From Synergistes jonesii (GTDB lineage: Bacteria > Synergistota > Synergistia > Synergistales > Synergistaceae): a DNA stretch of 53,472 nucleotides. Positions 3,448 through 24,860 of this stretch are shown here, piece after piece (position 1 is the stretch's first letter; every line of letters starts with the position of its first letter). The notes beneath the pieces were generated by a model. That model ran no database searches, had not been told where the DNA came from, and saw nothing but the letters and a program-made list of their open reading frames with translations. Made by a program: the position numbers and the translations under genes. The stretch is taken from assembly GCF_000712295.1 (NCBI RefSeq), contig NZ_JMKI01000034.1, positions 144 through 53,615 of the forward strand, in the 5' to 3' direction.

Positions 3448-3545
3448 GTCTTGTTCTGCCTCTGATATTTTTTAGAGCAGTTTTTGTGTGATAACGTGAT
3501 AATATTTAAGTTGATATGGAAATCTCGAAGGTGGGGAAAAGCTTC

Positions 3546-4604
3546 TTGGAAAATCAAAAGAGATATCTTGTTACCGGCGCGGCGGGGTTTATAGGAAGTA
3601 ATCTTGTTCGTTTCCTTATCTCAAAGGGACATAGGGCGGTCGCCTACGATAAACTGACCTACGCCGGCAATTATTCGTCGCTCAAGGGGCTTCCGGAAGA
3701 GAGCTTCGCGTTTGTAAAGGGGGATATATGCGATACGCACGCCGCCTTTGATTCGCTTGAAAAATACAACATTTCTTCCATTTTCCACCTGGCCGCCGAA
3801 AGCCATGTCGACCGTTCGATAGACGCTCCCGCCGACTTCATAGAAACGAATATAAAAGGCACGTTTTCGATGCTGACCGCCGCGCGCAAATATTATGAGT
3901 CTTTAGGCGGCGCCGCAAAGGCCAGCTTCCGCTTCCTTCATATTTCTACCGACGAAGTTTACGGCAGCCTCGGTGAAAGCGGCTACTTCGCAGAAGATAC
4001 CCCATACGCGCCGAACTCTCCCTATTCGGCGTCGAAGGCTTCGTCGGATCACCTTGTGCGCGCGTGGCATCATACATTCGGTCTTCCCGTGCTCACGACG
4101 AACTGCTCCAACAACTACGGGCCGAGACAATTCCCCGAAAAGCTGATACCGCTCATCATACATAAAGCGCTGAACGGAGAGGAACTACCGATATACGGCG
4201 ACGGGAAAAATATAAGAGACTGGCTTTTCGTGGACGATCACTGCTCCGCCCTTTATACGGTAATGGCAAAAGGCATGCCTGGAGAAACGTACAACGTCGG
4301 CGGAAATTGCGAGAAGCAGAATATAGAGATAGTCCATATCATATGCTCAATACTGGACGAACTGCGTCCGAAAAAAAGCGGCAGTTACGCTTCGCAGATC
4401 GTCTTTGTAAAAGACCGACCAGGGCACGACAGGCGCTACGCTATAGACGCATCGAAGATAAAGCGCGAGCTTGGTTGGCAGCCGTTAGAAACCTTCGACA
4501 GCGGCATAAGAAAGACAATAATCTGGTATCTTGACAACACCGAATGGGTGAAGGATATCATCAACGGTAAATATCAGTGTCAGAGATTAGGCTCAGACGC
4601 TTAA
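3546..4604 (+). CDS. rmlB: dTDP-glucose 4,6-dehydratase
   Basis: Converts dTDP-glucose to dTDP-4-keto-6-deoxyglucose, the branch point for rhamnose and for 4-amino-4,6-dideoxy sugars. Extended SDR fold: NAD-binding GAAGFIG near the N-terminus, [12 protein letters not shown], the catalytic triad region HISTDEVYG with its Asp-Glu pair, and catalytic YSASK; the nucleotide-sugar region [14 protein letters not shown] follows. I prefer TTG 3546 (352 aa), which follows AAGGTGGGG. An in-frame ATG at 3516 lacks a ribosome site. First gene of the glycan locus; RmlA and RmlC are encoded 12 kb downstream and RmlD is absent from the window. Confidence 0.93.
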
Positions 4605-4668: not shown

Positions 4669-7638
4669 TTGAATTATCTGCATATTTTGCCCTCGGATAC
4701 AATAAGGACATGCCGTGTAATAGAAATGATGCAGGAACACTTTGATATAAAAGAGCATCATTTTATGATAATGGCAGATAAAGAATATGTAACAAAACAT
4801 TATCCGGTTCTACTAAATTTTCCTTGGCTTATGTTCTTAAACAAGCCGTCAAAAAATACGTTTTTTAAGAAACTAAAGATAGTTCGTCCTGTGGCAAAAC
4901 AAATGAAAAATGCGGACGTGATCGTATGGCATTCGTTGATGCCACTTAAGGGAGCTTTCGGCTTCCCCCTTTCCTTAGCGTGCGCGAGGAAGAGAAACCT
5001 GAAAAAATCCGTATGGATTGAACACTCAACCGATTTGCTTTACTGGGCAAACCCTTCCGCCAAATCGTTTAAAGAAAAAATAAAAAACCGCCTTCAGAAA
5101 TATATAAGAGAAAATATCCGCTGTGTCGGGCTGTCTCTTCCTTCGGACAAGCCGATACATGGCTATTCTTTTAACGGATATTATAAATATTTCGATCTCC
5201 CGACGCCACCATCTGAGCCGCACGTTCAGATATTGGAGAACGTTATCGAAGAAAAAAGAGCGCAGGAAGAAGAACAGCGTAGCGCGCTCGTTGACACCGC
5301 AGTGAAAAAAGAGCTCGATCGCCTTCTTGCGATGGAAAAAGAAACTAAAAACAGCGCCAGAAGAGTCCGCGTCGAAAGCGCGATAGAGAAGAGTTCCGCT
5401 GTGTGGGTCTGCAAAGACGGAGAAAAATACCTTGAATTTACACGCGCGACATCGTCGACAGACGATATCACAATACCCGAAAGCAGGGAAACAACCGCCG
5501 AAAGCACCTTCCTTGGTGGAAAAACGGCCAATTCTGCGCCCAGCCGGCTGACGAAAAAGCAGCCGTCGAAGAGCGGCCGTACTGCGCAGGGGCATGCCAG
5601 GAGCGACAGCGATGTGCTAGCGGTATCAGAGCGCCACGGCGGAGAAGGGGATGAAGAGAGCCTCTTCGACCTCGACGAAACCTGCGTGGGAAATGAGATC
5701 TCTGAAGCGAAAGAAGACGATTCCTACGAAGGACTGCCCTGGTACGAAAGAGTGGTGAAACAAGCTGAAAAGACAGAAGCCGATAAACGGGCGAAGGCCG
5801 AAGAGGAGGCACGTGCCAAAGCTGAGACCGAGGGGCAGTATGTCGAAGAGTACTCTTCATACGAGGATCTTGTCAAAAAGGTCGACGCCTTGACGGAGCT
5901 GCCGCCGCACAAGCCCGTGATACTTCTCGGCTACGACGGTCTGACCTACAATGGGCACAAGAGCCTGATAGACAAGCTGAAACTTTTAAAAGGGCGCCGG
6001 AATCAGATTGCAGAGCTGTACGTGCCGATGCACTATACGATGCTCAACGAGTATGACACGCCGTCGTCGGACGCATACAGGCGATCTATTTCCGATTACG
6101 GTGCAAAAACGCTCGGTTTCCGCCCGAAGCTCCTCAACAGCGGCCGCGTAAGCGAAGAAACGTATTTTAAATTCCTCAGCAATGTCGATATAGCCGTCTT
6201 CGGGGGACACAGGCCTCTGAATGCCGACGCCCTACTTTATCTGCTTCGCATGAGGAAAAAGATATTCCTGCCGAGGAGCACTTTTTTATACAAACTATTA
6301 AAGGATAACGGTTATCCTGTATTTGAGAGCGATGCGCTACCCGGCATGAAATTCGAAGAGTTTATCGCCCCTCTGCCAGTAACGGATGAAGTTTTCGAAT
6401 GGGCGACAGAAAGGCTTGATTACCAGGCTGTACTGGAGAAATGGCGGAGTTTTTATAACTATGTAAATTCCAGACCGTCGAAAAAAGCGTTTAATAATAA
6501 GCATATAAAATATCTATATATCTTCTTTGGAACGCCGCACACGCTTGGAGGATACTGGAAAATGGTTGACAGCCGTGCCGACGCGGCCGACCATAAATAT
6601 CTGATATTAAGAGAAAAATCAATTTTGAGATATGTGCCAGAGCTTGCCGAAAGAGACGACATACTCTACCTTTGCGAGGGAGGCAAGTTGAAAAAAGCGC
6701 GTTATCTATACCGCCTTTTCTCAAATGCGGACAATATCATCATTCACGGTATGTTTATAGGTACTTTGCCTGTCGCGATTCTCGCGCTGTTCAGGAAATT
6801 CCATAAAAAGCTTGCTTGGATCGAGTGGAGCGGAGATATCTGGCTGTGGAAGAGAGACGAGAACTGTCTTAAGGACAAGATAATAAACAAGCTGAATCAC
6901 AGAATCAGGGAGGTAATACCGTACATCGTAATGACCGCTCCCACTGATGAAGAGAGATTCAAGAGCGAGTTTAAAACCGGCGCTAAGTGCGTGTACATAG
7001 CGTTGCCTACAAGGAGAAACGGAAATTCCAACGACGCCATCGATGCGGTGAGGCCGCCGCAGAAACCGGAGGATTCTCCGATAAGGATACAGATCGGGCA
7101 TAACATGTTCCAGTTCAACAACCATATTAAGATTCTGGACAGCTTGAAGAAATTCGCGGATGAAGATATAGAGATATTTATCCCGATGGCATACGGGGAC
7201 AGCGGATTAAACGGACAGTACGGCGGCTGGGAATATGTCAATATGGTGAAAAAGAAAGCGTCGCGGCTGTTTGGCGAGAAACTGGACCTTCTCACGCGCG
7301 TGATTCCTCTTGACGAATATACCGCAAAACTGTGGAATGTGGATATTGCAATATTCGGTTCCGAGAGGATATGCGGCGCAGCGAATATCTATATGCTGAT
7401 TTACATGGGCAAGAAAGTATTTCTGCCCGGGACGAGCGAATATTATAAATTCTTTGTCGACAAGGGGATAAAAGTATTTGATACGAATAAGATATCCGAG
7501 ATGACGTACGAGGAGTTTATCAAGCCCGTGGAGAACCAGGATAGCTCTTGGGTTCTGGATCAGTACAATCAAACGCTGATTCGTTCGCAGTGGGATGCCT
7601 TCTTCAAAGAACTTGATGAAAGACATCTGAAGAGATAG
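4669..7638 (+). CDS. Tandem WecF-like (GT56) glycosyltransferase with a ~230-residue charged insertion
   Basis: 989 aa, TTG start. Two repeats resemble family GT56 (WecF/RffT, TDP-Fuc4NAc transferase). Repeat 1 is split: N-half ~1-182, C-half ~413-600. Repeat 2 spans ~612-985. Paralogous blocks: VWIEHSTDLLYWANP against AWIEWSGDIWLWKRD, and the C-terminal pair MKFEEFIAPLP against MTYEEFIKPVE. The insertion (~183-412) is rich in Glu/Lys/Arg/Ser, begins and ends with likely helical or coiled-coil stretches (VIEEKRAQEEEQRSALVD; EADKRAKAEEEARAKAETEG) and has no recognised fold. No membrane segments, so probably cytoplasmic or peripheral. WecF-type donors are dTDP-4-acylamino-4,6-dideoxyhexoses, matching the aminotransferase and acyl genes of this locus. 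Family assignment is by pattern and moderately sure; donor and acceptor are inferred. Confidence 0.7.
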   Translation: MNYLHILPSDTIRTCRVIEMMQEHFDIKEHHFMIMADKEYVTKHYPVLLNFPWLMFLNKPSKNTFFKKLKIVRPVAKQMKNADVIVWHSLMPLKGAFGFPLSLACARKRNLKKSVWIEHSTDLLYWANPSAKSFKEKIKNRLQKYIRENIRCVGLSLPSDKPIHGYSFNGYYKYFDLPTPPSEPHVQILENVIEEKRAQEEEQRSALVDTAVKKELDRLLAMEKETKNSARRVRVESAIEKSSAVWVCKDGEKYLEFTRATSSTDDITIPESRETTAESTFLGGKTANSAPSRLTKKQPSKSGRTAQGHARSDSDVLAVSERHGGEGDEESLFDLDETCVGNEISEAKEDDSYEGLPWYERVVKQAEKTEADKRAKAEEEARAKAETEGQYVEEYSSYEDLVKKVDALTELPPHKPVILLGYDGLTYNGHKSLIDKLKLLKGRRNQIAELYVPMHYTMLNEYDTPSSDAYRRSISDYGAKTLGFRPKLLNSGRVSEETYFKFLSNVDIAVFGGHRPLNADALLYLLRMRKKIFLPRSTFLYKLLKDNGYPVFESDALPGMKFEEFIAPLPVTDEVFEWATERLDYQAVLEKWRSFYNYVNSRPSKKAFNNKHIKYLYIFFGTPHTLGGYWKMVDSRADAADHKYLILREKSILRYVPELAERDDILYLCEGGKLKKARYLYRLFSNADNIIIHGMFIGTLPVAILALFRKFHKKLAWIEWSGDIWLWKRDENCLKDKIINKLNHRIREVIPYIVMTAPTDEERFKSEFKTGAKCVYIALPTRRNGNSNDAIDAVRPPQKPEDSPIRIQIGHNMFQFNNHIKILDSLKKFADEDIEIFIPMAYGDSGLNGQYGGWEYVNMVKKKASRLFGEKLDLLTRVIPLDEYTAKLWNVDIAIFGSERICGAANIYMLIYMGKKVFLPGTSEYYKFFVDKGIKVFDTNKISEMTYEEFIKPVENQDSSWVLDQYNQTLIRSQWDAFFKELDERHLKR

Positions 7639-7651
7639 GGAGTGCTTGCAT

Positions 7652-8200
7652 ATGAAAGTAGAACTGAAAAAAGTGACGGAAAACGACCTCGAACGCCTGA
7701 TGGAGTGGAGGGCACGTCCTGATATCACAGAATATCTTTTTAACGACGTTAAAGTCGATATGGAAAAGCAGAGAGAATGGTTCAAAAGGTTACAGCAAGA
7801 TAAAACCCAGATGCGCTGGATAATATGGTGCGACGGCGTTCCAGTGGGAATGAATTGTATAACCGACATTGATTATGTCAACAAAAGGTGCGAGGCCGGG
7901 CTTATGTTTATCGCCGAAAAAAAATACAGGTCTCTGAATCTGATAATGGATGTGCGTTGCAATATGCGTGACTATATATTCTACAAACTCGGGCTCAATA
8001 AGTTTTACTCGTATGTTATGATAGATAATAGGCAGCTGGTCAAGCTTGCAAAGCTGACAGGTTGTGACGTGGAAGGCGTTTTGAAGCAGCATGTCGTAAA
8101 ATACGGAAAATTCCATGATGTCGCAATAACCGCAATGACAAGAGCTACATGGGATGAACTTAAGAAGACTGAACATTATGAATATTGTTCAATAGAATGA
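7652..8200 (+). CDS. GNAT-family N-acyltransferase, probable nucleotide-sugar acyltransferase
   Basis: 182 aa, RimJ/RimL/PseH-like GNAT fold: N-terminal KKVTENDLERLMEWRARPDI, acceptor region WIIWCDGVPVGMNCI, and a helix-loop CoA-binding segment around AEKKYRSLNLIMDVR. The C-terminal strand-helix YVMIDNRQLVKLAKLTG is typical. ATG 7652 is preceded by AGGGAG; TTG 7646 is a possible alternative. The position between the WecF-like transferase and the acyl-ACP genes suggests it acylates the 4-amino group of the dTDP-sugar, as WecD or PseH do with acetyl-CoA. Whether it uses acetyl-CoA or the acyl-ACP made by its neighbours cannot be told from sequence. Confidence 0.75.
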   Translation: MKVELKKVTENDLERLMEWRARPDITEYLFNDVKVDMEKQREWFKRLQQDKTQMRWIIWCDGVPVGMNCITDIDYVNKRCEAGLMFIAEKKYRSLNLIMDVRCNMRDYIFYKLGLNKFYSYVMIDNRQLVKLAKLTGCDVEGVLKQHVVKYGKFHDVAITAMTRATWDELKKTEHYEYCSIE

Positions 8201-8228
8201 TTTGCTGGCTTGCGACGGGAGTAGAAAA

Positions 8229-8987
8229 ATGTTAAACCCACTTGACTTAACAGGCAAAAAAATATTTGTCGCAGGGGCTTCTTCTGGTATCGGCAGAGCC
8301 GTTGCCGTATATTTGAGCAAGCTCGGGGCAAATATAGCAATAGCGGCGCGCAGAGAGGACAAGTTGCAGGAAACGTTGTCCGTGATGGAGGGAGAGAATC
8401 ATCGTTATTACGTTTGTGATTTCAACAATACAGATACAATAGAGCCTGTAGTAGCCGCCGCTGTGAAGGATATAGGGCCATTCTCTGGCCTCGTTTACAG
8501 TGCGGGACTTTCCCAGATGCGCCCGCTCGCTATGCTGAGAACTTCCGATATAAACGCTGTAATGACGGTAAATCTTTATGCCTTTGTCGAGTTTGCAAAA
8601 TGCATTACTAAGAAAAAAAACGTCACAACGCCCGCAAGCATAGTGGCCGTGTCGTCTGTCGCAAGCCTGCTGGGTGATAAAGCGAAGCTATCCTATTGTT
8701 CGTCGAAAGCGGCTTTGGAAGCTTCTACGAGATGCATGGCCAAGGAACTGGGGCACAGAGGCATCAGGGTCAATACAATCCGCCCCACATGGGTGAACAC
8801 GGGAATGATGGATGTGTTTTTCAAAGAATGGAAAGACTCTGCCGATGCGGAGTCGCATCTCGCGCAGCATTATGCTGGCGTCGTTCAGCCTGATGAACTG
8901 GCTGCGATGTGCGCTTTTCTTCTGAGCGATAATTCGAAAACCATCACCGGCACCGCAATATCGATTGACAGTGGACGTCTGGCGTAG
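8229..8987 (+). CDS. SDR ketoreductase, FabG-like (first of two)
   Basis: 252 aa classical short-chain dehydrogenase: cofactor motif GASSGIGRA, AARRE (Arg after the second strand suggests NADPH), YSAGLSQ in place of NNAG, catalytic Ser in VSSVASL and YCSSK active site. Closest in pattern to 3-oxoacyl-ACP reductases. ATG 8229 follows GACGGGAG; an upstream in-frame TTG at 8202 has no ribosome site. It precedes the ketosynthases by 27 bp and would reduce their beta-keto product. Together with 11494-12234 it makes two reductases for two ketosynthases. Confidence 0.85.
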   Translation: MLNPLDLTGKKIFVAGASSGIGRAVAVYLSKLGANIAIAARREDKLQETLSVMEGENHRYYVCDFNNTDTIEPVVAAAVKDIGPFSGLVYSAGLSQMRPLAMLRTSDINAVMTVNLYAFVEFAKCITKKKNVTTPASIVAVSSVASLLGDKAKLSYCSSKAALEASTRCMAKELGHRGIRVNTIRPTWVNTGMMDVFFKEWKDSADAESHLAQHYAGVVQPDELAAMCAFLLSDNSKTITGTAISIDSGRLA

Positions 8988-9014
8988 GCAGAGTGCCGCA
9001 AGCATGGAGTTTAT

Positions 9015-10103
9015 ATGAGGGCTAAAATGATAAAGTCAGTATTTAACGACATTAGGATTTCGGCAATGGAGACTGCTGTCTCCACTATATGGGAAGACGT
9101 GGATAGATTTAAGCCCTTGATGGGTGAGAGCACAGTGCAGAAATTCAAGAAGTCTACCGGCGTACTGGGGCAGTATGTCTCTCCGGAAAAACAGACTACT
9201 TCCGACCTTGCGTGCGCAGCGGCGAGGAAAATTCTCGAAGAGAAGTGCATCGATCCTAACAAAATCGGCGCGCTCGTTTTTGTTACGCAAACGCCGGATT
9301 ACGCCAAACCGGCCACTGCATGTGTGTTGCAGTTCAGGCTGGGGCTTCCGATAGACAGCATCGCTTTTGACGTCAACCTTGGTTGTTCCGGCTTTGTAAA
9401 TGGCATAAATATCGCCGCCAGCCTGATGCAGAGTTCTAAATTGAAATATGCGCTGCTTTTGCTGGGAGATACGGCATATAGGGATCAGATACTTAACACG
9501 CTCTACCCTAAAGACGACTCTGGGAAAATGCTGTTCGGAGACGCAGCCGTGGCGGTGCTTATGGAAAGCAACAAGAATGCGGAACCAATCTCCTGCGCGT
9601 ACAGGACTGACGGCAGCCGTTTCAAATCTATCATACACGTTAACTCGCACCAAAGGCATTTAAAGTGGAAAGAGTACGGCTCGCTGATGGATGGAGTTGG
9701 AGTCTTTAATTTCACTATAAACGATGTTCCGGAAATGATAAAAGAATTCATGATGGACGCCGGAACAACTCCGGACGATTATGACTGCCTCGTGCTTCAT
9801 CAGGCCAATTTATATGTCATGAAGCAGGTAGCTAAGCGCACTGGCTTCCCAATGGAAAAAATGCTCGTATCTATCGACGAATTTGCGAATACAAGTTCAG
9901 CATCGATTCCTACCGCCCTTACCAAATATTACGGCAAAGAGGCTGGAAACAGAATAATAAGGCCCTTGATGTGCGGATTCGGAGTCGGCCTTTCGTGGGG
10001 GATAGTCGACGCAAAAATAAATGTCAGCGATATACTGCCGCTGCTTCAGACAGATGAAAGCTTTGATGATGGCCTTGTATCGCCGTCGGAAAAGGAGAAT
10101 TAA
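9015..10103 (+). CDS. Beta-ketoacyl-ACP synthase III-like enzyme (first of two)
   Basis: 362 aa, FabH-like thiolase fold with an intact triad: Cys124 in NLGCSGF, His262 in LHQANLY and Asn292 in EFANTSSAS. KAS III enzymes condense an acyl-CoA (usually acetyl-CoA) with malonyl-ACP. ATG 9015 follows TGGAG. Only 2 bp separate its stop from the next KAS III-like gene, with which it shares residue patterns throughout (TPDYAKPAT against SPDYKRPAT), so the pair arose by duplication. The glycan-locus setting argues for a dedicated acyl donor rather than housekeeping fatty acid synthesis. Confidence 0.88.
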   Translation: MRAKMIKSVFNDIRISAMETAVSTIWEDVDRFKPLMGESTVQKFKKSTGVLGQYVSPEKQTTSDLACAAARKILEEKCIDPNKIGALVFVTQTPDYAKPATACVLQFRLGLPIDSIAFDVNLGCSGFVNGINIAASLMQSSKLKYALLLLGDTAYRDQILNTLYPKDDSGKMLFGDAAVAVLMESNKNAEPISCAYRTDGSRFKSIIHVNSHQRHLKWKEYGSLMDGVGVFNFTINDVPEMIKEFMMDAGTTPDDYDCLVLHQANLYVMKQVAKRTGFPMEKMLVSIDEFANTSSASIPTALTKYYGKEAGNRIIRPLMCGFGVGLSWGIVDAKINVSDILPLLQTDESFDDGLVSPSEKEN

Positions 10104-11230: not shown

Positions 11231-11479
11231 ATGGGAGAGAACTTGCGCAAATACAATGAGGTCTTCATGAATATTTTCGGAGCCGCCGAGAGCGACCTGA
11301 GCGACTCCTTTACGTTCGAAAACGTCCACAAGTGGGATTCTCTCGCGCACATGGCGCTGATTTCGCGTTTGGAAGATATATTCGACGTCATGTTTGAAAC
11401 GGAAGACGTTTTGCATTACGGGTCATATCTCAACGGCATAAAAATCCTAGAACGCTACGGCGTAGATATGAAAGCGTAG
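11231..11479 (+). CDS. Acyl carrier protein (first of two)
   Basis: 82 aa four-helix carrier protein with the phosphopantetheine site WDSLAHM (Ser37), one turn after HK. ATG follows AGGAGG. It would carry malonyl and the growing chain for the adjacent ketosynthases. It is shorter and less acidic at its N-terminus than housekeeping AcpP and lacks the usual DSLDTVEL, so it is a specialised carrier. The phosphopantetheinyl transferase is not encoded in the window. Confidence 0.85.
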   Translation: MGENLRKYNEVFMNIFGAAESDLSDSFTFENVHKWDSLAHMALISRLEDIFDVMFETEDVLHYGSYLNGIKILERYGVDMKA

Positions 11480-12284: not shown

Positions 12285-12506
12285 GTGGAAATCAAAGAAA
12301 AACTCGCGCTTCTCGAAGAAGAAGTCCTTGATATGGCGGCAGGCGAATTGAAGCCTGAAACGGCGCTCGAAGATATCGATACGTGGGATTCCATGGCGGC
12401 GCTCAGCCTTATAGTGCTGATGGAGGACAAATTCTCAAAGAAACTCACGAGAGACAATCTCAGAACATTCGTTACAGTTCAGGATATATTGAATTTTATG
12501 GGCTAA
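12285..12506 (+). CDS. Acyl carrier protein (second of two)
   Basis: 73 aa, GTG start after AAGGAGGA. Carrier site WDSMAAL with Ser36, strongly acidic flanks (ALEDIDTWDS) and a D-x-L-x-F C-terminus. Together with the first ACP it doubles every core component of the module (two KAS III, two reductases, two ACPs), which fits two elongation cycles or separate donor and acceptor carriers. Confidence 0.85.
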   Translation: MEIKEKLALLEEEVLDMAAGELKPETALEDIDTWDSMAALSLIVLMEDKFSKKLTRDNLRTFVTVQDILNFMG

Positions 12507-12550
12507 GGGAGCAAAACAGGCATCGGCTGTTCGCGCAAGGGGTGTAAAGT

Positions 12551-13948
12551 TTGTACTTAGGTCTAGAAGCGAAACCTCGGGACAAAGCGGCGCTCGTAGA
12601 CGATTTCGGTTCAATCGTCTCATTTGGGGAGCTTTGTTCTTTCATGTCCGAAATGAAGGGCTTCGTAAAGAGCGGGGCCGTTGTCTTTTGCCTTTGCGAA
12701 AACAGCGTCGGCGCTATAGCCGGCTATCTTTCCTTCATGGAGAACGGCGCCGTCCCGCTTTTGCTCAACGCCAGGATCGACAGGACTCAACTGGCGAATT
12801 TAATGCAGACGTACACCCCGCCGTACATCTGCTTCCCCGATCGATATAAAGGTGAATTCTCCGGATGCCGCGTTATTTTTGGGCGTTACGGCTATGTGCT
12901 GGCTGAGACGGGCAATAAATTCTATCCCGTCAACAAAGACCTCGCGATGCTTTTGTGCACATCTGGGTCGACCGGCAGCCCGAAGCTTGTGAGACACAAG
13001 CTGATAAACCTTGAGATGAGCGCGAAGCACGTGTCAGAGTTTTTCGGCGCGTGCGAGGACGACCGCTCGATGGCGGATTTGCCGATGTACTATACGATGG
13101 GGCTTTCTGTCATCAACAGCTATCTGTACAGGGGCGCTACGGTTGCGGCAACGTCGAAGAGCCTCATGTCGCCGGAGTTCTGGGATTTCTTCGGAGCTCA
13201 GGACATCACCGTCTTCACCGGAGTTCCCTACAGTTTTGAAATCTTAAGACGCCTGCGCTTTACCGGCAAAGAATGGCCTCACTTGAAAATACTCACACAG
13301 GGCGGCGGAAAGCTTAAAGAAAAAATATATCTGGAGTTCGCCGAATACGCGCGGAGGACAGGCAAGAAATTCATTGCGACCTATGGACAGACGGAATGCA
13401 GCGCCCGCATGGCCTACCTTCCGCCGGAGTTCGCGATATCCAAGCAGGGAAGCATAGGCAGGGCTATTCCAGGCGGAGAGCTGTTCATAATAAACGATAA
13501 AAAGGATTTTATAGAGGGTCCCGGCGAAGGCGAGATGTGCTACTGCGGCCCGAACGTCACGATGGGCTACGCCGAATGCCGCAAGGATCTTCTAAAGGGC
13601 GATGAGTGGTACGGCTTCCGCCATACCGGAGATATCGCGCGACGCGACGAGGACGGTTTCTATTTCATTACTGGACGCAAAAGCCGCTTCCTTAAGCTCT
13701 TTGGAGTCAGGGTGGGGCTGGACGACTGTGAAAAAATTATCTATTCCAAGTTTGGGATTGACTGTGCCTGCGCTGGCGACGACAAGGAAATGCGCGTCTA
13801 CATCACGCGCGACGACTTGTCAGACGCGGTAGTTTCTCTGCTGTCGGATACGACTGGAATACTACGCACGGCTTTTAAAATCTTTGTTATAGATCAGCTG
13901 CCCCGCAGCGGAGCGGGAAAGATTCTCTACTCCCAGCTGCCGCAGTAG
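12551..13948 (+). CDS. AMP-forming acyl ligase (ANL superfamily)
   Basis: 465 aa, TTG start after AAGGGG. ATP-binding P-loop TSGSTGSPK (residues ~137-145), A5-like ATYGQTECSAR, HTGD adenylate motif (~367) followed by GRKSRFLKLFG, and the C-terminal catalytic Lys in PRSGAGK. It activates a carboxylic acid as acyl-AMP and transfers it to CoA or a carrier protein. Its place after the second ACP suggests an acyl-ACP ligase supplying a starter or salvaging the acyl group. It is slightly shorter than acyl-CoA synthetases (~500-550 aa), with a short N-terminal domain. Substrate unknown. Confidence 0.83.
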   Translation: MYLGLEAKPRDKAALVDDFGSIVSFGELCSFMSEMKGFVKSGAVVFCLCENSVGAIAGYLSFMENGAVPLLLNARIDRTQLANLMQTYTPPYICFPDRYKGEFSGCRVIFGRYGYVLAETGNKFYPVNKDLAMLLCTSGSTGSPKLVRHKLINLEMSAKHVSEFFGACEDDRSMADLPMYYTMGLSVINSYLYRGATVAATSKSLMSPEFWDFFGAQDITVFTGVPYSFEILRRLRFTGKEWPHLKILTQGGGKLKEKIYLEFAEYARRTGKKFIATYGQTECSARMAYLPPEFAISKQGSIGRAIPGGELFIINDKKDFIEGPGEGEMCYCGPNVTMGYAECRKDLLKGDEWYGFRHTGDIARRDEDGFYFITGRKSRFLKLFGVRVGLDDCEKIIYSKFGIDCACAGDDKEMRVYITRDDLSDAVVSLLSDTTGILRTAFKIFVIDQLPRSGAGKILYSQLPQ

Positions 13949-15149: not shown

Positions 15150-16280
15150 ATGGCTATTCAGTTGTTCGTACCTACCTTCGACGTCGATAACTGTCTCTCG
15201 GAAATCAAAGAATGCCTTGAAAAAGGCTGGACCGGCATGGGATTTAAGACGGTCGAATTTGAAGAAAAATGGAAGCAGTACACCTCTTTGCCGAACGCCT
15301 ATTATCTCGGCTCCGCTACAGCGGCGCTTAACCTGTCTTTCGACATATTGAAGGAGGGTTATGACTGGAAGGACGATGACGAAGTCATCACGACGCCGAT
15401 GACCTTCATTTCCTCGAATCACGCTATCCTGTTAGCAGGGCTCAAGCCCATATTCGCCGACATAGACGATACGCTCTGTCTCGCCCCGGAATCGGTCCGC
15501 GCGCACATCACCGACAAAACGCGCGCGGTCCTTTTCGTCGGACTTGGCGGCAACACCGGAAGATATGAAGAGGTCGTCAAGATATGCGAAGAGCACAACC
15601 TTAAACTGATACTTGACGCAGCTCATATGGCCGGCACTCGCCTGCGCGGTGAGATTCCCGGCAAGGAAGCCGAAGTCGTCAACTATTCCTTCCAAGCGGT
15701 CAAAAACCTGCCGACAGCCGACAGCGGTATGCTATGCTTCAAAGAGGCGGAATTTGACAAGATAGCGCGCAGAAAAGCGTGGCTCGGAATCAATAAAGAC
15801 ACCTATTCGCGTTCGACGGGCGGCAACTACAAATGGCGCTACGACGTTGAGTATGTAGGCAACAAATATCACGGAAATTCCGTTGTCGCGGCGATTGGGC
15901 TCGCGCAGCTGCCGCATCTCGACATGGACAACGCCTACAGGCGTCAGCTCGCGTCATGGTACGATCAGATGCTCATGCCGTGCGGAGATAAAATCAAATT
16001 CATCACGGTGCCCGAAGGCTGCGAATCGGCGCGCCACCTCTATCAGATAATGATAAGCGACAGAGACGGGCTGATGACATACCTCAACGAACACGATATA
16101 TACCCCGGCGTCCATTATGTGGACAATACGCAGTACAGGATGTACGCCTACGCGGCCGGTACATGCCCGAACGCCGCTTACGCAAGCGACCATCTGCTTT
16201 CGCTGCCGATGCACCTTCGCCTGACCTATGAAGACGTATCGACCGTGGCGGAGTGCGTAAAGGAATTTTTGGCGAAATAA
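15150..16280 (+). CDS. DegT/DnrJ/EryC1-family sugar aminotransferase
   Basis: 376 aa PLP enzyme of the nucleotide-sugar transaminase family (WecE, VioA, PerA type). Cofactor blocks: [12 protein letters not shown] phosphate site, [23 protein letters not shown] with Asp156 for the pyridine nitrogen, and Schiff-base Lys185 in [13 protein letters not shown]. It would aminate dTDP-4-keto-6-deoxyglucose (RmlB product) to a 4-amino-4,6-dideoxyhexose using glutamate. The family also holds 3-amino enzymes, but no 3,4-ketoisomerase is encoded here, which favours a 4-amino product. A terminator follows directly. The gene ends the acyl/aminosugar stretch; rmlA begins 70 bp later. Confidence 0.87.
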
Positions 16281-16291
16281 ACCAACAAGGG

Positions 16292-16322
16292 CGAAGCCTT
16301 GACAACAGGGCTTCGGCTTTTT
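16292..16322 (+). terminator. Terminator between aminotransferase and rmlA
   Basis: CGAAGCC (16292-16298) and GGCTTCG (16309-16315), a 10-nt loop, then CTTTTTC. Expression of rmlA-rmlC therefore either uses its own promoter or depends on read-through. Confidence 0.75.
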
Positions 16323-16351
16323 CTATAAAATACGAGAGGAGTTTTGAAACT

Positions 16352-17221
16352 ATGAAGGGTATAGTGTTGGCAGGCGGCAAGGGGACTCGTCTTTACCCGA
16401 TAACTAAATCCGTTTCAAAGCAGCTGCTTCCTATATACGACAAACCTATGGTCTATTACCCCATTTCGGTCCTGATGCTTGCCGGCATCAGGGATATCCT
16501 GCTGATATCGGCGCCGGATGACATAGCCCAGTATGAGAGGCTGCTCGGCGACGGAAGCTGCTTCGGCGTCTGCTTCAGTTATAAGGTACAAAAAGAGCCG
16601 AGAGGCCTCGCCGACGCTTTCATCCTCGGCGAAGATTTCATAGGAAGCGAAAATGTATGCCTGATCCTCGGAGACAATATATTTTACGGGCAGAAGCTGT
16701 CTGACATCTTGAATCACGCGACCTCCCGCAAAGTCGGCGCTACAATTTTCGGCTATCCCGTCAAAAATCCGCGCGAATTCGGCGTCGTCGAATTTGACTC
16801 CGATAACAAAGTCATCTCGATTGAAGAGAAGCCCGCCGCGCCGAAATCAAATTATGCCGTGCCGGGTCTTTATTTCTATGACAACAGGGTCGTAGAGATA
16901 GCAAAAAACGTCAAACCTTCAAGAAGAGGGGAGATAGAAATAACCTCCATCAACAACGCCTATAAAGACATGGGAGAGCTGCGGGTGGAGCTTCTTGGGC
17001 GCGGCATGGCGTGGCTTGACACGGGCTCGCCGAAAGGCATGCTGAAAGCAGCCCAGTTCGTCGAAGCCGTTCAGTCGAGGCAGGGCTATTATATAGCGTG
17101 CCTCGAAGAGATAGCCTATAGGATGAAATTCATCGACGCCGACAGGCTCAAGACCATGGCAAAAGAGCTGGGGAAAACGGACTACGCTCAGTATCTTCTC
17201 ACGACCGCAAACGAAAAATAG
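16352..17221 (+). CDS. rmlA: Glucose-1-phosphate thymidylyltransferase
   Basis: 289 aa, the usual RmlA length. Makes dTDP-glucose from glucose 1-phosphate and dTTP, the first step toward RmlB. Signature [17 protein letters not shown] at the N-terminus, [15 protein letters not shown] with the metal-binding Asp, EEKP and the C-terminal allosteric-site region. ATG 16352 is preceded by GAGAGGAG and starts directly at the nucleotide-binding strand. The next gene, rmlC, begins 17 bp after its stop. Confidence 0.95.
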
Positions 17222-17238
17222 AAAGGAAACTGACTGCC

Positions 17239-17802
17239 ATGAAAATCACAGAGCTCGAAGTGCCCGGAGTGTTTCTTCTCGAACCTAAATATTTTGAGGA
17301 CAGCCGCGGCTATTACTGCGAGTCATATTCTAAGCGCACGCTTGCGGAGATTGGACTGAACGCCGACTTTGTCCAAGATGGACACAGCCTTTCAAGAGAA
17401 AAAGGGATACTGCGCGGAATACATTTCCAGAGATACCCACACTCTCAGACGAAACTCGTGCGCTGCACGCGAGGGCGTATCCTTGACGTCGCCGTGGATT
17501 TGCGCAAGGGCTCGAAATATTATACGAGATGGGTCGCTGTGGAGCTTTCCGAGGAGAATCGCAGGCAGTTGTGGATTCCAAAGGGCTTCGGACACGCATT
17601 CCTGACACTGTCGGAAAATTGCGAGCTTCAGTACAAGGTCGACGATTTCTACTGCCCACGGGAGGACCGTTCGATCGCCTGGAGCGATCCGCAGATAGCC
17701 GTAGACTGGCATTTAACTGCGGAGCCGACGTTATCCGAAAAAGACAAGAAAGCCCCTCTGCTGAAAGATAGCGATGTGAACTTCGCGACAGAAAATTGCT
17801 GA
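17239..17802 (+). CDS. rmlC: dTDP-4-dehydrorhamnose 3,5-epimerase
   Basis: 187 aa cupin. Catalytic His62 in ILRGIHFQ and Tyr132 in ELQYKVD are in place, with IPKGFGHAF carrying His119 and Asp in SDPQIAVDW. It epimerises C3 and C5 of dTDP-4-keto-6-deoxyglucose. The reductase RmlD, which would finish dTDP-L-rhamnose, is not encoded in this window, so either it lies elsewhere or the keto product feeds another enzyme, for example the aminotransferase. Confidence 0.95.
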   Translation: MKITELEVPGVFLLEPKYFEDSRGYYCESYSKRTLAEIGLNADFVQDGHSLSREKGILRGIHFQRYPHSQTKLVRCTRGRILDVAVDLRKGSKYYTRWVAVELSEENRRQLWIPKGFGHAFLTLSENCELQYKVDDFYCPREDRSIAWSDPQIAVDWHLTAEPTLSEKDKKAPLLKDSDVNFATENC

Positions 17803-17928
17803 TGCATATGATACAATAAAAAACAGCCAAGAGTGGAATTACGTATCTTTTCATATCTCCGCTTTAAGACATATGTTTCACAATGCTAAACTATGATGGC
17901 GGTATCAATTTAGATTGGAGTGCTGGAA

Positions 17929-19024
17929 ATGCAGATGCTTAAACGCAATGCGATAATTGACTTACTGAAATTTCTATTTGCAATAGTAATAGTTTTACAG
18001 CATATAAATGTAATAGGTGTTTCTAATAGTGAATATTTGATAGGTAAATATGGTTTTGTATCTTCGGAGTTTTTCTTTATAGTCTCTGGATACTTGCTTG
18101 CCCATTCTACTGCAAAGAAAGATAAAATCGAAAGTAATATGTTAGGTGTCGATACTATCCATTTCATACTTCACAAAATACAAATAATTTTCCCCTATTT
18201 TGTTTCCGCATGGTTTATTGCATTTGTCAGTAAGTGCTTTATTTATAAATACGGTATTGCCGATATTTACTACAACCTGATTTATTCTATCTGGGAGCTT
18301 ATGTTTTTAAGAATGTCCGGTATATATCATTTTCAGTCGATAGGACATACATGGTTCATCTCGGCTATGTTTATTGTAATGATCGTAATATATCCGTTAA
18401 ATAAGGCTTTAAAAGATAAATTTCAGTTGATTATTGTCCCTTTTATTACTATTATAGGTTATGGTTTTATGTCACACAATTATAAGAACATTGATATATC
18501 TTATTCTTGGGGGGGGGGGGTGTTACATGGCGCTGCCTAGGGCGTTTCTCGCGATATCTCTAGGATGTCTTTGTTACGCCGCCGCAGATTATTTGGATAG
18601 AATAAATTTCACCAAAAAAGGGCGTGTTATATTGACAGTCATTGAATGTTTTTTATGGCTGTTTGTCTTTTCACACATTTTCTTTTTCTATAAAGAGAAA
18701 TTAGATCTCGTTAATGTATTGTTTATTGCTATAGCTACTACCGTTTCTTTCAGTTCGAAAAGTTACCTGAGTCAAATAGTATGCGGAGATTTCTTTAGTT
18801 CCTTGGGAAAACTGAGCTTAACTTTGTATTTAAATCATTTTATTGTTACTAAGTATGTCAGCATAGTTGCTAAGCCTTTAAATCTTACAGACATACAGAA
18901 AATAACGGTTTACTTGATAGGCGCTATGATGATGGGAGTAATCGGGCTTGTAGCAGGAGATTGTGTAAAAGAATTTTATAACAAGTATAAATTTAAGTTA
19001 GTTAAACAGATGATAATAAATTAA
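17929..19024 (+). CDS. Membrane O-acyltransferase (acyltransferase 3), split at a G12 tract; probably phase variable, OFF here
   Basis: Paralogue of 13968-15047. Frame 1 runs from ATG 17929 (after TTGGAG) to a stop at 18538-18540; the remainder to 19024 is open in another frame. The join is a run of twelve G at 18509-18520. With eleven G the protein reads SWGGGCYMALPRAFLAISLG, which aligns without a gap to KWQGTFYSGLVRAFGGISLG in the paralogue, giving a normal 364-aa protein. Hallmarks are present: LLKFLFAIVIVLQHI, GFVSSEFFFIVSGYLLAHS and TWFISAMFIVMIVIYP. The gene is markedly more AT-rich than its neighbours, suggesting separate acquisition. A true pseudogene or a sequencing error in the homopolymer are the alternatives. 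Confidence 0.8.
18509..18520 (+). repeat. Poly-G tract (12 G) inside the acyltransferase gene
   Basis: Uninterrupted G12 in an otherwise AT-rich gene. Such tracts change length by slipped-strand mispairing. Eleven or fourteen G restores the full frame; twelve or thirteen does not. Confidence 0.9.
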
Positions 19025-23286: not shown

Positions 23287-24021
23287 TTATGATTTTTCGT
23301 ACGCTGAGCAGACTGTCTCGCTATCCCCAGAGAGGACCGCTTTGCCGCTGTCCAGCCACAGGGCTTTTTGGCACATTCTGCGCACGGCGTCGCACGAATG
23401 CGAAACGAATAGCAACGTAACGTTGTTTTTCAGCATTTCCTGCATTCTCGCCTCGCATTTTTTCTGAAAGGCTTTATCTCCTACTGCGAGGACTTCGTCG
23501 ATGATCAATATTTCCGGCCTGACCACCGTCGCAAGCGCGAAGCCTAGACGCGCGCTCATCCCGGATGAAAAGTTTTTGACCGGCACGTCTACGAAGCGTT
23601 GTACTTCAGCGAAGTTTGTGATCTCGTCAAAGTGATCTTCCATAAATTTTTTATTGTGTCCAAGCAGAGCACCGGCGAGAAAAATATTTTCGCGCGCAGT
23701 CAGCCTACCGTCGAAGCCAGCCTGCAGCTCTATCAAAGGTGCAATCTGCCCATATGTCTTAACCGTGCCGCGGTACGGCTTCAGTATGCCGCATATCAGC
23801 TTGAGCAGCGTTGATTTGCCCGAGCCATTGCGTCCTATTATGCCCCACGATTCGCCCTTTTTCACTGTGAGGCTGACGTTGTCTAAAGCGAAAAATTCTT
23901 GGAAGAGGAGCTCTCTCTTCGCTAGCTTCACGAAATATTCTTTTAGATTGTCTATTTTTTCTGTCGCGAGGTTGAAGCGGACAGCCGCGTCCCTGACCTC
24001 GATCATTGTCTTTTCTTCCAT
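23287..24021 (-). CDS. ABC transporter ATP-binding protein for polysaccharide export (Wzt/TagH type)
   Basis: 244 aa ATPase: Walker A GRNGSGKST, Q-loop IELQAGFDGRLTARENI, signature FSSGMSARLGF, Walker B ILIIDEVLAVGD and switch FVSHS. The AGFDGRLTARENIFL pattern is characteristic of O-antigen, capsule and teichoic-acid exporters. It ends after the nucleotide-binding domain, so it lacks the C-terminal glycan-binding domain of Wzt proteins that recognise a capped chain. It pairs with the permease at 24066-24860. Confidence 0.92.
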   Translation of the reverse strand: MEEKTMIEVRDAAVRFNLATEKIDNLKEYFVKLAKRELLFQEFFALDNVSLTVKKGESWGIIGRNGSGKSTLLKLICGILKPYRGTVKTYGQIAPLIELQAGFDGRLTARENIFLAGALLGHNKKFMEDHFDEITNFAEVQRFVDVPVKNFSSGMSARLGFALATVVRPEILIIDEVLAVGDKAFQKKCEARMQEMLKNNVTLLFVSHSCDAVRRMCQKALWLDSGKAVLSGDSETVCSAYEKS

Positions 24022-24065
24022 AAGATAAATTACTCCCGATTTTTACGTCTTATAAACATGCTACG

Positions 24066-24860
24066 CTATATGTAGAGTATAAAATTGTCCTGCGTTCTTC
24101 TGAATGTTTCGACTCCTATCACAAGTGAAAGCAACGCGGCGAAGCAGCCTATTATGAACATATCGGTATCAGGCATTTTGCCATAGAGAATGAAGCCGCG
24201 CGCTTGCTGCACGTATATAAAGATGGGGTTGAAATGCGAGACCAGCCAGTAAAGCTTTTGGGGAAGTATCTTTGCCGGATAAAATAGCGCCGACAGGTAC
24301 ATCCACGCTGTTAAGAAGGCGTTGTATATGTACTGGACATCGCGGAAATATACCGTGGCTGCCGCGAGAAAAAACGCCATGCCCATGCAGAATACGTAAA
24401 GCTGCAGCAGTGTAATCGGCAGCAACAGTATGTACCAGGATGGAAGCGTCTTCGTAAAGAGCATTACGATCGCTATCGCGCCGAGCGAAAAGATAAAATT
24501 CACAGCGGAACTCGTTACGCTTGCAAGGGTGAATATGTAGCGCGGCACGTAAGTTTTTTTCAGCAGCGCCGCGTTGCCGATGATCGACCACATACCAGTC
24601 CTTGTGGACTCGCTCAGAAAATCAAATATCGCCCTTCCGATGAGAAGGTATATAGGATAATTTATAATATCGTAGCGGAACATGTTGGAAAAAACGCCGG
24701 TAAGTACGATCATTATCAAAAGTGGATTCATTACGCTCCATAGGTAGCCGAGCACACTTCTCCTGTATTTCAGGCGGATGTCGCGCCTGACGAGCTGGGT
24801 GAGTAATTCCCTTTTGTTGTACAGGTTTACGACGCGCTGTATTGTCTTTGTTCTTGTCAT
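24066..24860 (-). CDS. ABC-2 type polysaccharide export permease (Wzm/TagG type)
   Basis: 264 aa with six predicted helices. N-terminal amphipathic region LLTQLVRRDIRLKYRRSVLGYLWSVMNPLL is the standard start of Wzm/TagG permeases, with the aromatic-rich segment YLSALFYPAKILPQKLYWL later. It moves the lipid-linked glycan across the inner membrane together with the ATPase encoded 44 bp downstream. Confidence 0.92.
   Translation of the reverse strand: MTRTKTIQRVVNLYNKRELLTQLVRRDIRLKYRRSVLGYLWSVMNPLLIMIVLTGVFSNMFRYDIINYPIYLLIGRAIFDFLSESTRTGMWSIIGNAALLKKTYVPRYIFTLASVTSSAVNFIFSLGAIAIVMLFTKTLPSWYILLLPITLLQLYVFCMGMAFFLAAATVYFRDVQYIYNAFLTAWMYLSALFYPAKILPQKLYWLVSHFNPIFIYVQQARGFILYGKMPDTDMFIIGCFAALLSLVIGVETFRRTQDNFILYI

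Follow-up and report, generated by a model that had tools for sequence, protein, structure and literature searches.

The closest described relative of the protein analysed here is WecF (RffT), the TDP-Fuc4NAc:lipid II Fuc4NAc transferase of CAZy family GT56, which enzyme in E. coli consists of one unit of 359 aa whose linker is 20 residues long. Its gene lies in the ECA cluster, and the Synergistes jonesii locus that we describe resembles that cluster in having dTDP-amino-sugar genes alongside (RmlA/B, a DegT transaminase, and a GNAT acyltransferase). The WecF profile matches over both units of the S. jonesii protein, the second of which is predicted to adopt the GT-B fold; but here two units are fused, the first of them being degenerate and carrying a 239-residue linker, and the simple acetylation of the WecF context gives way to an acyl-ACP gene set.

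Sequences and Procedures

The window—that is, the whole stretch of DNA analysed, 53,472 nt in length—comprises positions 144 to 53,615 of the forward strand of the S. jonesii contig NZ_JMKI01000034.1 (GCF_000712295.1). Sixty-one genomes of relatives were scanned for the fused gene and its insertion, and the NCBIfam profile NF002756 (WecF; curated equivalog cut-off, 457 bits) was run on 188 Synergistota genomes, so that our figure for rarity covers the Synergistota only. For the Pfam GT56 family (PF07429) the gathering score is 25 bits. Conservation was tabulated over 27 columns that are conserved in 12 other GT56 proteins, E. coli WecF included; since an earlier count of strict identities over 28 columns (18 versus 17) had failed to separate the two units, we adopted substitution severity according to BLOSUM62 as the measure. 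The tree was obtained by maximum likelihood from 19 GT56 units after excision of the insertion.

Results

The reading frame remains open for 989 codons, from a TTG at 4669, just upstream of which stands the purine-rich AAGGAAAGGA, to a TAG stop at 7636-7638, and comprises the following parts:

4669..7638, forward strand: 989-aa tandem fusion of two GT56 (WecF-like) units, starting with TTG; recognized by profiles, with the same fusion at L013 8001-11045
4669..5214, forward strand: N-terminal GT-B domain of repeat 1, residues 1-182; NF002756 E-value 6.9e-13 and motif table
5215..5904, forward strand: insertion that splits repeat 1 at its interdomain linker, charged and for the most part disordered, residues 183-412
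5905..6486, forward strand: C-terminal GT-B domain of repeat 1, residues 413-606; NF002756 E-value 1.8e-10 (residues 413-600)
6487..6504, forward strand: variable inter-repeat junction, about residues 600-612; L013 shares 1 of the 13 residues
6499..7635, forward strand: repeat 2, a complete GT56 unit of GT-B fold, residues 611-989; Pfam GT56, 51 bits

The initial annotation had proposed a tandem WecF-like protein whose first repeat is split by a charged insertion of 230 residues, which architecture the profiles bear out: residues 1-182, residues 413-600, and residues 611-989 all showed GT56/WecF similarity, and NF002756 matched repeat 2 with an E-value of 6.6e-55. The fused protein as a whole, with a best score of 264 bits against the required 457, did not reach the WecF equivalog cut-off, and each of its NF002756 matches fell below every such cut-off. 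Repeat 2 scored 51-55 bits with the Pfam GT56 model, above the gathering score, while a Pfam GT56 search of residues 1-182 and 413-600 returned no match for repeat 1; as judged by its NF002756 E-values, unit 1 is thus a remote GT56 member. The two repeats share about 26% identity, and a sequence search of solved structures with the fused protein gave nothing significant. In an AlphaFold2 model of unit 2 (pLDDT 73) the predicted fold was GT-B, and the best PDB matches were GT4-type GT-B enzymes (Z 18-21 over about 330 residues, the first with Z 21.3, 334 residues, and an rmsd of 3.8); the last strand of its N-domain spans 163-166 and the first strand of its C-domain 195-200, the linker between the two being poorly predicted. 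The full-length model (pLDDT 46) was too poor for judging how the units pack, and gave the fold of unit 1 at low confidence.

The same fused gene, including an insertion of similar length, was found in Synergistes sp. RGIG7157 (G001), a metagenome-assembled genome (MAG) from water-buffalo abomasum, in which the contig JAFYJW010000032.1 (L013) encodes a protein of 1014 aa with 71% identity to that of the window, within an open frame of 1020 codons. Identity by region was 78% for the unit 1 N-domain, 41% for the insertion, 68% for the unit 1 C-domain, and 89% for unit 2, with 73% for unit 1 overall. The assembly artefact of which the initial annotation had warned is therefore ruled out, the fusion and the insertion both recurring in an independently assembled genome. 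In the broader form of an intact gene to which a decaying pseudogene has become attached, such an explanation might appeal to the MAG-derived data and to the radical alteration of unit 1, but 989 and 1014 codons stand open in the two genes, and the dN of unit 1 (0.15-0.21) lies well below a dS near or at saturation, so that we give either version practically no credence. With a dN of 0.06-0.08 for unit 2, unit 1 is, by these substitution estimates, under a purifying constraint looser than that on its partner.

In a third Synergistes genome (G002) the GT56 pair occurs as separate neighbouring genes (L014 8947-10326, then 7808-8950). This pair is like the fused gene in its order and in the orthologous first gene, the 459-aa product of which is a GT56 relative interrupted by an acidic stretch where unit 1 has its insertion; it differs in that the genes are separate with a stop/start overlap, ATGA, within AAATGAAA, in the length of the insertion (about 95 aa), and in the other sugar-acylation genes nearby. 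The second gene is a GT56 unit without interruption, and the junction between the repeats of the fused protein matches the position of the ATGA overlap. In the tree, unit 1 of both fused proteins and the first gene of G002 formed a clade (support 100/98), and a genus-specific group (95/93) took in these as well as unit 2 and the second gene of G002. A recent duplication within the gene, which origin would make the first and second units of the fused proteins sisters, was rejected (AU test, p=0.0067), whereas a clade of unit 2 with the second G002 gene, though absent from the best tree, was not rejected as a constraint (p=0.26). Given that clade of unit 1 with the first G002 gene and the rejection of the sister pairing, divergence preceded fusion: on this phylogeny the fused gene is the product of two anciently diverged adjacent paralogues that were joined later, in this lineage of rumen-type Synergistes.

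Among the 188 Synergistota genomes, 11 had GT56 proteins by NF002756, and adjacent or fused pairs occurred only in the genus Synergistes. The genome G146 has three GT56 paralogues (L040, L041, L042), each on its own contig, and in L042 the first motif is degenerate, with YSPEVE replacing WGGD. A further GT56 gene in G002 (C65; L015 2807-4390), apart from the pair and within another dTDP-sugar cluster, encodes a single protein of 527 aa with a C-terminal tail of 142 residues, 54% of them D, E, K, or R. Charged appendages on GT56 proteins seem, from these sequences, to be recurrent in the genus.

When compared with the 12 GT56 proteins, unit 1 retained none of the conserved signatures WG(G/A)D, PLSYG, and RQQGxGN. 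Its N-domain reads W-I-E-H-S-T-D where the family has W-x-x-W-G-G-D, so that HSTD stands for WG(G/A)D; in its C-domain, the YG of PLSYGD has become YT (PMHYT) and the GxGN of RQQGxGN is gone (RPLNADA). In the first gene of G002 these blocks are lost as well, but with other replacements (NGQD, HT, and TSICAQY). The BLOSUM62 sums, out of a possible 164, were 87-92 for the unit 1-type proteins, 113-121 for unit 2, and 136 for the second G002 gene, and substitutions with negative scores affected 6-7, 2-3, and 1 of the 27 columns, respectively; at the remaining, background columns the similarity of unit 1 was slightly below that of the others. Unit 2, too, is derived (WSGD, RICGAAN), and its strict identities at the 27 columns (17-18) were few more than those of unit 1 (15-16), which figures speak for an unequal degeneration of the units and fall short of proving unit 1 inactive and unit 2 active. 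Nor is low conservation a proof of inactivity, as one G146 paralogue and a distant homologue in G033 had scores about as low as those of unit 1. Our literature search found no GT56 structure, no mapped GT56 catalytic residue, and no GT56 fusion, and the catalytic role of the motifs is accordingly presumed. In GT-B enzymes, the glycine-rich stretch of the C-terminal domain contacts the diphosphate of the donor, and by that analogy the loss of this stretch suggests that donor binding might be impaired in unit 1.

These data bear on the earlier suggestion that the fusion adds two successive amino sugars, both units being active one after the other, as they are in other glycosyltransferases with two modules. 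Both do retain the NF002756 match, and unit 1, besides being under purifying selection, keeps the invariant Trp and Asp together with the conserved His of the GNS...NxH motif (motif 2). The losses of WGGD, YG, and GxGN in unit 1 and its G002 ortholog, however, are radical and mutually different, which pattern would be expected from a relaxed catalytic constraint rather than from a shared new specificity. With most of the glycine and aromatic signature positions gone from both proteins, we consider a bifunctional enzyme unlikely.

The interdomain linker was 239, 264, and 102 residues long in the three unit 1-type proteins, compared with 19-36 in 13 other GT56 units. The insertion is 38-43% charged and lies in the disordered range of the charge-hydropathy plot, with 38% D/E/K/R for residues 183-412 of the window protein. 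We rejected the idea that it is a known domain or a mobile unit: residues 183-412 had no significant match among the family profiles, and within the 61 relatives the insertion was confined to this gene, in two genomes. Those two insertions are related to each other by sequence, although with a dN of 0.55 (against 0.06-0.21 for the domains) and an identity well under the 68-89% of the flanking domains; neither the G002 insertion nor the tail of the G002:C65 protein bore any detectable relation to them. The low-confidence full-length model placed helices at 183-229 and 357-388, a disordered middle, and a short hairpin at 246-255. Of the coiled-coil character ascribed to part of the insertion, these two terminal helices are what remains, a simple heptad scan not having singled out the segment as a coiled coil. 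In the L013 insertion (8547-9311) a short motif occurs twice, as AVKRDKSGEIYLEFP and AIARDKSGLIYIELP, and in that of the window once, as AVWVCKDGEKYLEF; from its sequence, it is perhaps a short linear binding motif. Being fast-evolving, variable in length, and charged, the insertion would be more in keeping with a flexible tether than with a domain that docks enzymes specifically.

The surroundings of the fused gene contain the following:

3516..4604, forward strand: dTDP-glucose 4,6-dehydratase (RmlB); TIGR01181 above cut-off
7646..8200, forward strand: GNAT N-acyltransferase, PseH-like; PF13302, and TIGR03585 with 90.3 of 93.1 bits
8202..12234, forward strand: acyl-chain genes, namely SDR, two KAS III-like, ACP-like ORF, SDR
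11231-11479, forward strand: the ACP-like ORF, judged by its DSL-type motif alone
12285..13948, forward strand: ACP (PP-binding) and AMP-forming acyl ligase
15150..17802, forward strand: DegT-type sugar aminotransferase, RmlA-like nucleotidyltransferase, and RmlC
23287-24860: Wzm/Wzt-type genes

In the listed gene order, an acyltransferase-3 lies between the AMP-forming ligase and the DegT transaminase. From the functions of their families, these genes would be the set expected for a dTDP-4-amino-4,6-dideoxyhexose bearing an acyl group made on an ACP. At 17920-19024 of the window, an acyltransferase-3 gene (O-acetyltransferase type) is split into two overlapping ORFs, both matching PF01757, the second half weakly; the break falls at a run of 12 G (about 18509-18520) in AT-rich surroundings, which tract looks either like a homopolymer that makes a gene for surface-glycan modification phase-variable or like an indel from sequencing or assembly.

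That repeat 1 might serve as a scaffold for the acyl-ACP machinery had also been put forward, and such a docking role of unit 1 and its insertion for the neighbouring acyl-ACP/KAS enzymes would be in keeping with the charged and flexible nature of the insertion and with a fused gene that heads an operon containing ACP, KAS III, ligase, and SDR genes. The G002 pair, however, whose first member is interrupted at the corresponding position, belongs to a cluster of 16.7 kb—the whole of its contig—in which we found no ACP or KAS gene and which contains instead the components of another acylation route (an ATP-grasp ligase and a WbqC-like protein) along with Wzm/Wzt-type genes. Furthermore, single GT56 proteins free of the insertion adjoin the same ACP/KAS set: on plasmid 35 of Parabacteroides distasonis (NZ_OY725780.1; L053 10006-11142) a gene product labelled "hypothetical protein" is related to GT56, and its neighbours are an acetyltransferase, two ACPs, SDRs, an AMP-ligase, and KAS III. 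This small Bacteroidales plasmid apparently carries an acyl-aminosugar cassette that has escaped annotation, and one that needs no tandem transferase. Both comparisons argue against an acyl-ACP-specific scaffold, as does the rapid divergence of the insertion (41% identity), and we regard that role as improbable; the part of the suggestion that survives is a more general one, since a partner or scaffold function of repeat 1 is still the best reading.

The Wzm/Wzt-type genes, present both in the window and in the G002 cluster, evoke yet another possibility, a chain-terminating transferase with a ruler-like insertion in an ABC-transporter-dependent O-polysaccharide system, the terminators of such systems being known to carry coiled-coil rulers (PMC11231755). 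Here, however, the insertion lies within a transferase unit and not between a terminator and a polymerase, is predicted to be mostly disordered with short helices, and is accompanied by a Wzt-like ATPase of just 244 aa, which length leaves no room for a cap-binding C-terminal domain. A chain terminator is accordingly a very improbable identity for this protein.

Discussion

The signature losses of unit 1, together with the charged insertion in its hinge, make a helper role for the better-preserved unit 2 probable, and we judge it somewhat probable, on these sequence comparisons, that unit 1 is a pseudo-glycosyltransferase partner and unit 2 the catalytic transferase of the fused GT56 protein. 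The architecture, the orthology, the unfused state, the losses in the motifs, the constraint, and the content of the operon are observed; the donor, the acceptor, the inactivity of unit 1, and its helper role we infer. As the working enzyme, unit 2 would, like WecF, transfer a dTDP-4-acylamino-4,6-dideoxyhexose onto a lipid-linked saccharide acceptor, in which circumstance RmlA, RmlB, the DegT transaminase, and the GNAT acyltransferase would supply the donor sugar, and the ACP/KAS/ligase set of the same operon its acyl group. Unit 1, as a putative GT-B-fold pseudo-glycosyltransferase, would not turn over the donor, but might stabilise or activate unit 2 or help to hold the acceptor for it. The insertion, standing in place of the short hinge of unit 1, would uncouple the half-domains from the usual cycle of opening and closing, and might also act as a flexible tether.

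A more far-reaching proposal, which we advance tentatively as possible though not expected, is that of a GT56 transferase dependent on a dedicated degenerate GT56 partner, first encoded by an adjacent gene and later fused to the enzyme in cis, the disordered insertion at the hinge being a regulatory or docking element. If this were so, the Synergistota would possess a WecF-type enzyme controlled by a pseudoenzyme. Automated annotation would score the fused protein as one WecF-like enzyme; we would have instead a glycosyltransferase/pseudo-glycosyltransferase pair caught both split and fused inside one genus, which coexistence of the two states makes the helper-subunit hypothesis testable.

Glycosyltransferases that rely on a partner have been described in other families. 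The yeast Mnn9, itself catalytically active, activates its partner Van1 apart from its own catalysis (PMC3787745), and the activating partner of the glycosyltransferase EryCIII is the P450 homologue EryCII (PMC3391682). Both pairs are like the role proposed for unit 1, in that a partner protein is needed beyond its own catalysis; they differ in belonging to other glycosyltransferase families and in being unfused, and the helper role that they exemplify would apply to unit 1 by comparison. Set beside these systems and WecF, the fused GT56 protein of S. jonesii is an unusual variant, though a modest one, within an enzyme family already known, and not a new kind of system.
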